Assembly: GCA_028829895.1 (NCBI GenBank)
Contig: CM054180.1
Coordinates: forward strand, 113,502,635-113,566,634
Source: Sinotaia quadrata
Lineage: Eukaryota; Mollusca; Gastropoda; Architaenioglossa; Viviparidae
Direction: 5' to 3'
DNA length: 64,000 nucleotides
Below are positions 1 to 64,000 of this stretch, piece by piece. The position numbers were made by a program, and so were the translations under genes. The number at the start of each line of letters is the position of its first letter. Position 1 is the first letter of the stretch. Below the pieces are notes generated by a model, which saw only the letters and a list, made by a program, of their open reading frames with translations, was not told the origin of the DNA and ran no database searches.

Positions 1-238
1 CATCCCGGAGTGCAGACGTTTGTGGCGGGTATCATGATATTGGTGGAATGAGGGGTGTGGCACACGGCGCACGTGGGGTCAAAATCGTGAGTAGATTCTG
101 GGTGTGTCTCGTATTCTCCTCCATAGAGAGAAGCGATAGTACTTGGCTTTGCACGCTCGTCATAAACAGGGTTTGGCGGCAAACACAGGTAGTTAGCTGC
201 ACCACCGCTATGTGTAAAATGTGATCCACCAATAGTGC
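1..238 (-). CDS. Gene A exon 7 (5' part): C-terminal domain, truncated by window edge
   Basis: Begins after acceptor CATTCAG and is open to the window edge. It contains the GGxANYLCLP motif, NPVYD, LYGGEYET and CAVCHT-P followed by IMIPATNVC. Variable residues here are GGSHFTHSG and ERAKPSTIAS. About 70 codons and the stop lie outside the window. Confidence 0.87.
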
Positions 239-3200
239 CTGAATGATAATCAAGTAAACCTCGATAAAATTAGTGTCAGACGGCTTCAGTGAGTTACAAT
301 AAAACTAAAGAAATTATATGAATGTGGTATCACATATAAAGGTTTTTATTTTCAGCAATCAGTTGTCATGGCAAACGTTACTTAAGAAATGTCAGCAAAC
401 TATATTCAAAATTTCCAATGACTTTGACGTATTTTAGACAAATGAATTGTTTGTCATTGTTTTAGCGAGGACGGAACGTTTTGTGTCATTCCTTTCACAT
501 TAACAATACTGTGAATAATTTGACAATTCTAACTTATCTTTCATTCTCTACACATTGCCATTTTAATTCACGAATTTGTAAAAATCTCTAATTCTGAACG
601 GAATAGTGATAATAATTACTTACAAAACTGATTTTAATATCATCAAACGATAACAATAATAAATTTAGTTCACGAATTACCAAAAATAATGTACAGCATG
701 CTGTACATAATGTTTGAAAGAATTATTTTGACCGTCAAAGAAATCGCTGATTGTCGTACCTGAATAGACCGTTTGTGCACTGCCGGAACAATTATCGCTG
801 CCCCAATGAGTATAAGTGGATCCACTTGCATCTGTAAAAGAAAAGCATATTGAATCATAAAAAAATGTCACTTTACTGAAACTAGAAATCTGAAGACTTT
901 TTAAATTCCGCTATATGTAATATTGTAGCTAGATCAATTGTCAAAGGGTGACGGAGTAAATTTTTCTAAACTTAATAATTATATATTTATTGCCAATGTT
1001 AACGTGACCCGATCTTGGGCATGTGCTGATGAATATGTTTTGTAACGACTGAGTTGCTGATGCAATCCAAACCAGTTCCAACTGGAAGAGTAGTTTTTGT
1101 AATAGTCTCATACTTGTTCATAACAACTTCATCTAATGGGGATGGACCGATCATTCCCTTGTTGAAGAAGTTCTATATTCTAATCACTTTGGTTTCGACA
1201 TAACTCAAGTCATCAAAGGCAATCGTTATCGTATGGTATATTATCTGATGTACAGAAAAAGAATGGACTTAGAAACATTTCGTACATGTTTCCTATTGTT
1301 ATCTTATATTAACTGACTTACAAAGAATGGACTTAGAAATATTTCGTACATGTTTGCTATTGTTATCTTATATTAACTGACTTACAAAGAATGGACTTAG
1401 AAATATTTCGTACATGTTTGCTATTGTTATCTTATATTAACTAACTTACAGAGAAAGAATGGACTTAGAAATATTTCGTACATGTTTGCTATTGTTTTAT
1501 GAATTGTTTTGGAGATTGCTTTATGTAAGTGAACCACTATTTCTTAGGCTGCGTGTGTATTAGGCTATCGGATTTCATAGCAGGATTTGCATAATGAAAA
1601 TTTATATAAGAGAGAAAAGGGGTTTAGAAATGAAATATGCCTGAAATTTAGTGCTGCCTCAATTTGACTTTTACAGAAAGGAGCAAGCCATTTTTTTTGT
1701 TTCTAATCCATCATCCACTTCAGATCACATTGACTACTGTACTCTAACGGATCAAATATTTGTATGTGTATCCAACGTTGTCGTCAAATATATCAGTAAA
1801 CATGTTGCTGTAAGTTCATTCCTGTGAATTCCGTTCGAAAGCCAATATGACGGAAATAGAGGCTGGAGTTTGGTCTCCAGAATTCATGAACATTGTTGAC
1901 CATTCCTGTTGGTGTACTTGGTAGCACACATGAAAGTTCTGGATGACTCTTTGTCATGTCCGTTGATAGTGCATACAAAGATTTAGATGATTCACACGTT
2001 GTGATGTGCTTTGACACTGCATATAAAGATTTGGATTATTCACTTTTTGTGAAGTGTTTTACTGTGCATACACAGATTTTGATGATTCGCCAAGATGTGT
2101 TTTGTGAGCGCTTCAAAGATTCTGGAACGATTGTGTATAATTCCAGATTAATTACGTGTATGGATGTAAAAGATTAATTACGTGTATGGATGTAAAAGAT
2201 TAATTACGTGTATGGATGTAAAAGATTAAATACGTGTATGGATGTAAAAGATTAAATACGTGTATGGATGTAAAAGATTAAATACGTGTATGGATGTAAA
2301 AGATTAATTACGTGTATGGATGTAAACGCGAAGGTAGAATGCAATGTTCGTGACAACTATACATTATATTATTGTAAATAAAAACTAGTTTAGAGTGCAT
2401 TACTTGCTTATGTATTGAAGGTGACGTAATAATTATAATTACAGTATCAATCGAAAGGAAAACCAAACACTATTTTAACCTCTATTTGTAAATTGCAGAC
2501 ACAAATTTTATTTACAAAGATCTGTTTTGACATTACTCAATAATTTTTGCAAATTTTATTTTGTACTATTAATAGAAAATGAAACTAATAATGTCAGATG
2601 CACGGGTATGTATGCGCGCGCGCTCGTGTGTGTGTGTGTGTAGACCTTAATATGTAAATGAAGCTAAAACATCATAAACAATTTCTTTTCGGTTTAATTA
2701 GCAAACTCTGACATCTTCGATAACATTTTGTACTGCATAAATAAAAAAAACTGTGTACGAAACGATTTAAAATCTCATCTAAGTATGAAAAAATGAAATA
2801 CATAGGTGCACGTGCATGCTGCGTGTATGTCTGTGAGTGTGTCTGTGTGTGGAAAGACAAATCCAGAAGGTTATGCAGGTATACATACAGGTTCGAATAT
2901 ATTCCTTCAATTGATCGGACTGGTTTCGTATCTGACTGGCCAAATTGTCGTTGTTGTCACGGATACTGCTCACCGTATCCAGCAACAATTTCATTTCGGT
3001 TTGACTTCTATTAATAGCATCCGCCATTTCGCTCACTGGACCGTGCATATTGACGGTTTCTTCCTGTAGTGCCTCCAGTCGCCCCTCCAGCGTTGACAGA
3101 CGTTTCTCAAATCCATCAACAGTGACTACAGCGATGTGGGTTTTCAGTGAGTCACTCTGTAGACACTGAACAGCTGGTGATGTTCCATCCAACTGGCAGG

Positions 3201-62700: not shown

Positions 62701-64000
62701 CACACAAACAGGGTGCCGTGAATCATCACAGCTGCCACACCCTAGGATTGAAACTTCTCGAACAATACCACGAGCATACAAAGAATAAGAGGAAAGGACG
62801 CTTTCTCCTTTCATCAAGCGACGATCCTATTTTCATGACCTACTTGAGTTACATCAAAGTGATTAGAATATATGATTTTCTTCAACGTATTGGCTAGTTT
62901 GTTATTTGTAAACCTAAATCAAATGGATAGCAAAAATCACACATCCACTCTGAAGTGGTTTGATTATCTCAGCACGTTCTATCATATTCTTTACCTGAGT
63001 TGTTATTTTAACTCTGGTAGTTATAACAATATCGTCATGTACAGTACCGAAGGTCATGCCACATTGACATTTAGCAAAAATATAATAATTAATTTTTAAA
63101 GTAAGGACAAGCAAATTTACCCCCCCCCCTACAAACAAACACAATGGTTCTTTTTTAATTGAGTTCAGATGTATAACCCAGGTGGAGATTCTGAAAAGTA
63201 TTACAATTGTGTCGTTTTCTTTTTGTCATCATTGTGTTCTACGTCAATGTATTTGAAATGTATACCTGTCTAAAAGATCCCGATTCATACCATAAACTAT
63301 TCTTGTGTACAGAAAGCTATAAAACTGAAATTATTAAAAGAATTTATGCAGATCAAATGGAATAAAGTACACAACCAATCACGTGATAATCGGCAATGCA
63401 ATCTTAAAAAGAATCAATAATCTTATAGCACTGTTTTAACGATAGCAAGTTTAAAGTAAAACAAAATCAATTGTCCTAGTCTAGAGTGAAAAGTGTTAAT
63501 ATGTAATATTAATCATATTTAATCAAAATCGTTTACGCACCTTAATAAATATTATATATCATGATCGAATTTTGCATTATTAATTTTTCACACCTTTCTT
63601 TTCGTAAATGGGAACTGCAGTTTTCTCTGTACAATTATTTTACGTGTTTGTTCTTATAATCAACACGTTTACGAAATTGATAATTAAAATGAATGTAATA
63701 TACATACTTTTCTGCGATGTGAACCATTTGACATAGTGAACATGTTCAGAAGTCGTTATGTTAAAGACCCAAGGAAGAGTGACATTGGCTCCAGCACAAA
63801 CGTCCAATCGCGTTCCGTTTGGAAAAGTGGTTGAGGAAGTCCATTGTAAAGCACACGTCACTAGAAAACATGTAGAAATACTTAGTTAAAAGTCTGATTT
63901 CTATCTCTTTTACTGTCTTCCTGTTTGGTATGTGATAGAATTAGTTTGAACTAATACATACATAAAGAGAGACACAAACGGAGGGACAAATAATAAGAGG
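56250..64000 (-). CDS. Gene D: secreted Ig-Ig-coiled-coil protein with short-chain-collagen-C4-like C-terminus (exon 1 outside window)
   Basis: Six of seven exons are inside the window: 63708-63860, 61361-61570, 59388-59533, 58488-58899, 57257-57328, 56250-56704 (stop at 56252-56250). Exon 1 is expected about 1.8 kb further upstream, beyond 64000. Exon 5 is 412 nt instead of 403 and adds three residues near the end of the coiled coil (QMRELRNQ against QIRNQ). The intron between exons 2 and 3 is about 1.35 kb longer than in A-C because of an insertion (about 61612-62970). Exon 4 ends AAG|GTAAGT where the others end AAA|GTAAGT, still Lys. The C-terminal domain has its own loop residues (NDFAY, GLFGHTAA, SRAGYGS). 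All visible exons are open. Confidence 0.86.
57257..57328 (-). CDS. Gene D exon 6: start of C-terminal domain
   Basis: 72 nt encoding YTFGSTFTHWGSNNC and SAETVYSG. The downstream intron starts GTACGAC, as in all copies. Confidence 0.88.
57393..57617. repeat. 32-bp minisatellite, 7 copies
   Basis: Unit AGTATATTTACGTCTGTTAT followed by ACGTAATATTAG, with AAGTGTG and ACGTCTG variants alternating. It lies in the gene D intron between exons 5 and 6. Confidence 0.93.
57630..57845. repeat. Degenerate tandem repeat of about 40 bp
   Basis: Diverged units with AATATTATAACTAAATCAAT followed by TATCTAAGCAGTG, related to 21290-21580 in gene B. Confidence 0.7.
58179..58229. repeat. TG microsatellite
   Basis: Pure TG run in the gene D intron between exons 5 and 6, at the place where B has a shorter TG-rich stretch. 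Confidence 0.95.
58488..58899 (-). CDS. Gene D exon 5: rest of Ig-like domain 2 plus coiled coil, 3 residues longer
   Basis: 412 nt, 9 more than in A-C. The extra three residues fall just before RNQSDQ near the C-terminal end of the coiled coil. It has QNESLKNH and DEVSGIREN as copy-specific changes. Confidence 0.9.
59388..59533 (-). CDS. Gene D exon 4: first half of Ig-like domain 2
   Basis: 146 nt with LECG and VVWK. The last codon is AAG, followed by GTAAGT. Confidence 0.88.
61361..61570 (-). CDS. Gene D exon 3: second half of Ig-like domain 1
   Basis: 210 nt. It has QLFRLSGVHSAYY where A-C have QLFGLSGIHSAYY. Same non-canonical YYSV and later Cys in LGDTC. Confidence 0.88.
61690..61930. 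repeat. Dispersed repeat shared with 46460-46700
   Basis: The second copy of the repeat described in the C-D spacer, in the same orientation. Here it is part of the gene D intron insertion. Confidence 0.6.
62002..62444. repeat. 49-bp minisatellite, 9 copies
   Basis: Unit TGGAAGAAATAGAGTTATAG followed by AGTGATGTGATAGTAGTTTG and TACATAACA. Copies are nearly identical, so the expansion is recent. Confidence 0.96.
63708..63860 (-). CDS. Gene D exon 2: first half of Ig-like domain 1
   Basis: 153 nt after TTTTCTAG, ending AAAA|GTATGT as in B. The protein matches the other copies. The upstream intron runs out of the window. Confidence 0.88.

Follow-up and report, generated by a model that had tools for sequence, protein, structure and literature searches.

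The 64,000-bp window analysed here (C4:113502635-113566634, within a 984 Mb assembly of 26 contigs of the snail Sinotaia quadrata) carries part of a tandem array of genes whose predicted products consist of two immunoglobulin (Ig)-like domains, a coiled coil, and a ten-Cys C-terminal domain (the tail). We put at about 60% the probability that these are VIgL-type genes with an NC1-like domain of the spongin short-chain collagen family in the lectin position, including a proposed role in oligomeric recognition. A first-pass annotation made from the letters of the window had suggested a VIgL-type plan, and this was borne out by Pfam, homologue, and heptad evidence. Its further suggestion that the combination is not a described class agrees with our searches, since no Ig + NC1-like molecule was found in the protein collections and papers searched. 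The literature was covered mostly at the level of titles and abstracts, and Gorbushin 2019, the key source on VIgL classes, may list such a type.

Gene structure and tandem array

Repeat and BLASTN comparisons revealed four paralogues arranged head to tail on the minus strand of the window, with the common seven-exon layout and domain order described in the first-pass annotation. Exon SP is short and hydrophobic (11 codons and one base), exons A and B encode Ig-like domain 1, exon C and the first part of D encode Ig-like domain 2, the rest of D encodes the coiled coil, and exons E and F encode the ten-Cys domain. Exon borders were set by hand in gene T6 and then fitted to the other copies. T6 (35760..43296, minus strand), called B in the annotation, is complete, with AG acceptors, GT donors, a GC donor after exon SP, and one open frame; the joined protein has 490 residues instead of the 489 given there. 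Its exons are SP (43296-43263), A (41476-41324), B (40540-40331), C (38792-38647), D (38200-37798), E (36834-36763), and F (36214-35760).

Beyond the window the array comprises nine tandem copies, T1 to T9 (C4:113446573-113603400), and all seven exons were placed in constant order in each of them. Eight copies read open. The exception, T3, has several stops in exon D (C4:113484721-113485126) and is probably a pseudogene. Length differences between copies are multiples of three in all nine. All 54 fitted internal exons have an acceptor AG in front of them, and 53 of the 54 end at a GT or GC donor; the fitted end of T2 exon A has neither, so that the A/B border of T2 is uncertain. Three further units lie at C4:113.05-113.12 Mb. 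Exons A-F were found in one of them (L028), exons D-F in the examined DNA of L026, and exons E-F in that of L027; exons C and D of the latter two are among the genome matches, and exon D of L027 contains one stop. Across C4:113.05-113.60 Mb, 12 tail exons adjoin 12 exon-C and 12 exon-D matches of the genome search, with 62 matches to the tail exon genome-wide. Exons are 90%–98% identical among T4-T9 and the 150-bp flanks 66%–88%, except for a block upstream of the start codon (92%). This pairing, together with exon identity above that of the flanks, argues that the array is not a chance arrangement.

No start exon with at least 12 residues before the donor was common to the copies; alignment of the copies then revealed the 11-codon start exon with its GC donor. 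A hydrophobic N terminus (MFLFLIISSVSVTCA and similar), a candidate signal peptide, is present in all nine fitted copies. The block conserved upstream of the T6 start codon (43297..43863, minus strand; 92% over 150 bp in T4-T9) is a putative promoter and contains TGACGTCA at 43646-43639. The same motif occurs 315-384 bp upstream of the ATG in seven of the nine copies and is missing from T1 and T2. The first intron starts with GC (GCAAGT) in seven of the nine copies (window positions 43263, 9067, and equivalents) and with GT in T1 and T5, an instance of GC-AG intron conservation within a tandem family.

The C-terminal NC1-like domain

The tail of T6 (exons E and F, 35760..36834, minus strand) has 175 residues and ten Cys, the number counted in the first-pass annotation. 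By sequence it belongs to the spongin / short-chain collagen C4 family. Its relatives include proteins of Pomacea, Nucella, Littorina, and Batillaria, and several relatives are named short-chain collagen C4-like. The model of one relative, P0024 (54% identical to exon F), has the fold of collagen IV NC1 (fold classes listed by VIA, Foldseek), and through this model the tail is predicted to be NC1-like. Sequence family and modelled fold thus agree with the short-chain collagen C4 type named at first pass. SCOP places collagen IV NC1 in the C-type-lectin-like fold.

The tail had been set apart from the lectin domains of known VIgLs, and neither exon F nor the joined protein gave a Pfam match at E ≤ 1 to fibrinogen (PF00147), C-type lectin, galectin, or C1q (PF00386); likewise, no C1q candidate was found at C4:113.0-113.6 Mb among the 150 of 164 genome candidates scored. 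The Pfam C4 family (PF01413) was not matched at E ≤ 1 by exon F or the joined protein of the window, nor was it among the 25 of 133 families listed for 62 aligned tail members. The claimed lack of collagen repeats was upheld in T6, whose 490 residues contain neither a PF01391 match at E ≤ 1 nor four consecutive Gly-X-Y triplets; seven of the 62 aligned family members do match collagen repeats. Exon F had no sequence match in the PDB at E ≤ 1, and the family profile had none on the tail, its seven weak matches (0.07-0.83) falling in the helical or N-terminal part. The Ig part was matched in none of 69 tail-bearing protein hits.

Ig-like domains and coiled coil

Ig-like domain 1 of T6 (exons A and B, 40331..41476, minus strand) is V-set-like, with a Pfam V-set score of 18.3 bits, under the cut-off of 26. 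Ig-like domain 2 (exon C and the first part of D, 38024..38792, minus strand; Cys165, Trp180, Cys213) matched Ig_2 with 21.9 bits (E = 2e-4), under the cut-off of 27. The Pomacea homologue P0056 clears the V-set cut-off with 32.1 bits. Automatic tools are reported to struggle with the Ig domains of molluscan VIgLs (PMC9334734). The Cys is absent from its usual place in the F-strand motif of Ig-like domain 1 (YSVHV) in all nine copies, and the Cys and Trp of Ig-like domain 2 are invariant in the alignment. The sub-threshold Pfam matches, the V-set of P0056, and the kinship of Ig-like domain 2 with exons at FREP-type loci (below) point to the two immunoglobulin superfamily (IgSF) domains of the VIgL class. 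The P0056 model, built from three sequences, was too poor for a structure search with the Ig half.

The stretch behind Ig-like domain 2 (rest of exon D, 37798..38023, minus strand) has a best 35-residue heptad register with 90% hydrophobic a/d positions, a value reached by 32 of 5,000 shuffles. Pfam coiled-coil families matched T6 weakly and none above cut-off, and the P0056 model, of low confidence overall, has a helix (246-302) over the matching stretch. Heptad register, weak Pfam matches, and modelled helix suggest the coiled-coil interceding region typical of VIgLs.

The Ig cassette elsewhere in the genome and in other snails

A genome search with Ig-like domain 2, in which 150 of 199 candidates were scored, found clusters on several chromosomes. 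At nine loci examined, the acceptor AG of exon D stands before the same codon in all nine, and several of the coils are much longer than those of the window. Further downstream DNA was examined at three of these loci (C5:113.67, C3:13.48, and C1:118.66 Mb). The first two contain a fibrinogen-like exon, first picked by eye, which passes the Pfam cut-off of 22 (28.7 and 23.9 bits, respectively); a shorter piece of the C5 exon gave no match. Since exon D is homologous, has the same acceptor position, and is accompanied by a fibrinogen exon at two loci, the Ig2/coil exon of T6 matches the kind carried by FREP-type genes. At C1:118.66-118.68 Mb, exon D and a tail-family exon lie on the same strand 15.5 kb apart, and a second, diverged Ig + NC1-like gene could not be established there, as no clear exon E was present in the 4 kb examined. 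At three loci (L034, C1:118.68 Mb; L035, C3:28.9 kb; L036, C4:122.12 Mb), Ig2 exons run into long repeat-built helical stretches with open frames of 516-924 residues, indicating that stalk length varies greatly in the family.

In Pomacea P0056 the Ig-Ig-coil part is 34% identical to that of the window genes and is followed by a C-terminal SRCR domain (Pfam 95.8 bits); a shorter protein, P0073, has the same Ig pair before SRCR. In two predicted Batillaria proteins the same cassette of Ig and helical parts is followed by a MIB/HERC2 domain, which scores 64.9 bits in P0072 (cut-off 33.5) and stays below the cut-off in P0065; this may be another head type or a gene-prediction fusion. The Ig relatives were P0056 and P0072 in a search with a three-sequence profile and P0056 and P0073 with residues 14-260 alone. 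Neither search, both requiring exact-word sharing and returning few gastropods, gave a further Ig + NC1-like protein.

Divergence among copies

The ratio of nonsynonymous to synonymous divergence (dN/dS) was estimated for the eight open copies, excluding T3 (28 pairs), and for the T4-T9 subset (15 pairs). Over 28 pairs its mean was 0.15 for Ig-like domain 1, 0.16 for Ig-like domain 2, 0.39 for the coil, and 0.38 for the tail; within T4-T9 the means were 0.17, 0.21, 0.33, and 0.54, respectively. Sites with at least four different residues numbered 1 of 121, 1 of 108, 2 of 78, and 17 of 175 in the same order. Secondary structure was transferred to the tail by alignment from the P0024 model, and tail sites with at least three residues then made up 29 of 104 loop positions versus 4 of 71 strand positions (Fisher P = 1.1e-4). 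The loop-focused variation announced in the first-pass annotation therefore holds for the C-terminal domain and fails for the Ig domains, the Ig half being under purifying selection. In no pair did dN exceed dS in the tail, so positive selection was not demonstrated.

Within T4-T9, dS was 0.077 in Ig-like domain 1 versus 0.170 in the tail and about 0.2 in two introns, with sharp drops at exon borders (exons A-C). This pattern suggests that silent sites in the Ig exons are constrained or homogenised exon by exon. Gene conversion was considered as the cause, but the flanking introns are not homogenised. The contrast is gone over all eight open copies (0.320 in Ig-like domain 1 versus 0.301 in the tail).

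Alternative explanations

Each unit might instead be divided into two genes in tandem, with exons SP-D encoding an Ig-coiled-coil protein and exons E-F an NC1-like protein that lacks Ig. Tail genes of Ig-less appearance do occur in the genome. At C3:26.2 Mb, exon E has a stretch of hydrophobic and helical character ahead of it in the 4 kb examined, and no Ig2 match lay at C3:26 Mb among the 150 scored candidates. A short hydrophobic frame starting with ATG occurs inside the D-E intron of T7-T9, and the single-gene model is drawn from the DNA sequence. Against this division, exons D and E connect in frame across a phase-1 intron in all nine fitted copies, and the conserved non-coding block of T4-T9 stands before exon SP (92%) and not before exon E (72%). 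Moreover, the D-E introns of the nine copies yielded no significant match to the stretch from C3:26.2 Mb (best E = 3.1), nor do they have a candidate start exon common to all. Taken together, the in-frame join, the position of the block, and the content of the introns argue that exons SP-F form a single gene, and two genes per unit are very improbable.

If the single gene encodes a VIgL-type protein, it would be secreted and would form a trimer or larger oligomer through the coiled coil and the NC1-like head. The head loops may then provide a diversified binding face for varied ligands (a microbial or parasite surface, or altered self), with the constant Ig half coupling bound targets to hemocytes or other plasma proteins, and the array, through duplication and divergence, would set parallel heads on a single constant stalk. 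NC1 domains are, however, described as assembly modules (PMC5395295), and the tail has relatives that carry collagen repeats or short-chain collagen C4-like names, as would suit a matrix or reproductive protein, that is, an Ig-bearing adhesion, mucus, or egg-capsule protein using the NC1-like domain for assembly as in spongins and collagen IV, with the array serving dosage. We regard this as unlikely: T6 has no collagen repeat, its Ig half is that of FREP-type genes, and expansion for dosage does not require differences to cluster in loops. A greater challenge to the recognition role is neutral drift: the protein would be VIgL-type, but its tail loops would have drifted neutrally once the gene was duplicated, and the array would be no diversified recognition repertoire. 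This shares the anatomy of the preferred explanation, so that the probabilities of the two overlap and do not sum to one, and we give it a substantial minority chance. In its favour, tail dN/dS is below 1 in every pair, and T3 is broken as birth and death predicts. The excess of variable sites in loops (28% of loop versus 6% of strand positions) and the low dN/dS of the Ig half (0.15-0.16) speak against drift, but loops are always freer than strands, so that this is not decisive.

For the origin of these VIgL-type genes, we tentatively propose, at somewhat less than even odds, that an NC1 assembly domain of spongin-type collagens was captured behind a portable FREP-type Ig-Ig-coiled-coil cassette in this snail lineage and gave a new tandem receptor family its diversified recognition head, the lectin-position domain being variable and the Ig half constant.

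Comparison with known systems

FREPs are described as having two IgSF domains, a coiled-coil interceding region, and one globular C-terminal domain (PMC7588048). The window genes share this plan, and their Ig2/coiled-coil exon has homologues with the same acceptor position at two fibrinogen loci of the same genome, but they carry an NC1-like domain where FREPs have the fibrinogen domain (FBG). FREP3 diversity lies in IgSF1, whereas the window genes combine a variable C-terminal domain with conserved Ig domains.

The first-pass annotation listed FREP, CREP, and GREP as VIgL classes, but incompletely: it missed QREP and an Ig-Ig-SRCR lectin. CREP, GREP, and QREP are reported as Ig-bearing lectins (PMC9334734, PMC10672478), QREP carrying C1q and being expanded in Caenogastropoda (PMC10672478). 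They differ from the window genes in their C-type lectin, galectin, or C1q heads. According to PMC9178244, which cites Gorbushin 2019, the Ig-Ig-SRCR lectin may occur exclusively in Caenogastropoda; P0056, which we infer to be this lectin, differs from the window genes by its C-terminal SRCR. Since QREP and Ig-Ig-SRCR have been reported, swapping of partners behind the Ig cassette is already known, and the NC1-like head is an added variant among heads on a known cassette.

Spongin short-chain collagens and short-chain collagen C4-like proteins share the ten-Cys NC1-like domain, but have collagen repeats (P0057) or a long Ig-less helical stretch (P0018, P0024) in front of it. Collagen IV NC1, which has the modelled fold, is longer than the tail (about 225 versus 175 residues).

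With these genes, a matrix-assembly domain would be added to the heads that one Ig cassette carries in snails. Head shuffling can be traced in one genome, from the same Ig2/coiled-coil exon to fibrinogen and NC1-like heads, and a nearly constant Ig half with a variable head is a natural setting in which to test whether the Ig part or the head of a VIgL does the recognising.

Other gene copies and features

The other window copies, all on the minus strand, were delimited by exon fit. T5 (20029..27761) is complete and encodes 489 residues; its exons are SP (27761-27728), A (25866-25714), B (24938-24729), C (23253-23108), D (22636-22234), E (21116-21045), and F (20480-20029). T4 (1..9100) is cut by the left edge, the last 217 nt of exon F, whose end was taken from the genome, lying outside; its exons are SP (9100-9067), A (7302-7150), B (6282-6073), C (3921-3776), D (3291-2889), E (831-760), and F (238-1). 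T7 (56250..64000) lacks its start exon at the right edge (SP at C4:113568099-113568066), and its exons within the window are A (63860-63708), B (61570-61361), C (59533-59388), D (58899-58488), E (57328-57257), and F (56704-56250). Tandem repeats lie between or within the gene units at 61899-62542 (49 bases), 53734-54310 (44), and 57359-57663 (32). Elsewhere on the same contig, a cluster at C4:131.7-136.8 Mb accounts for many of the 150 scored genome matches to the C1q domain.

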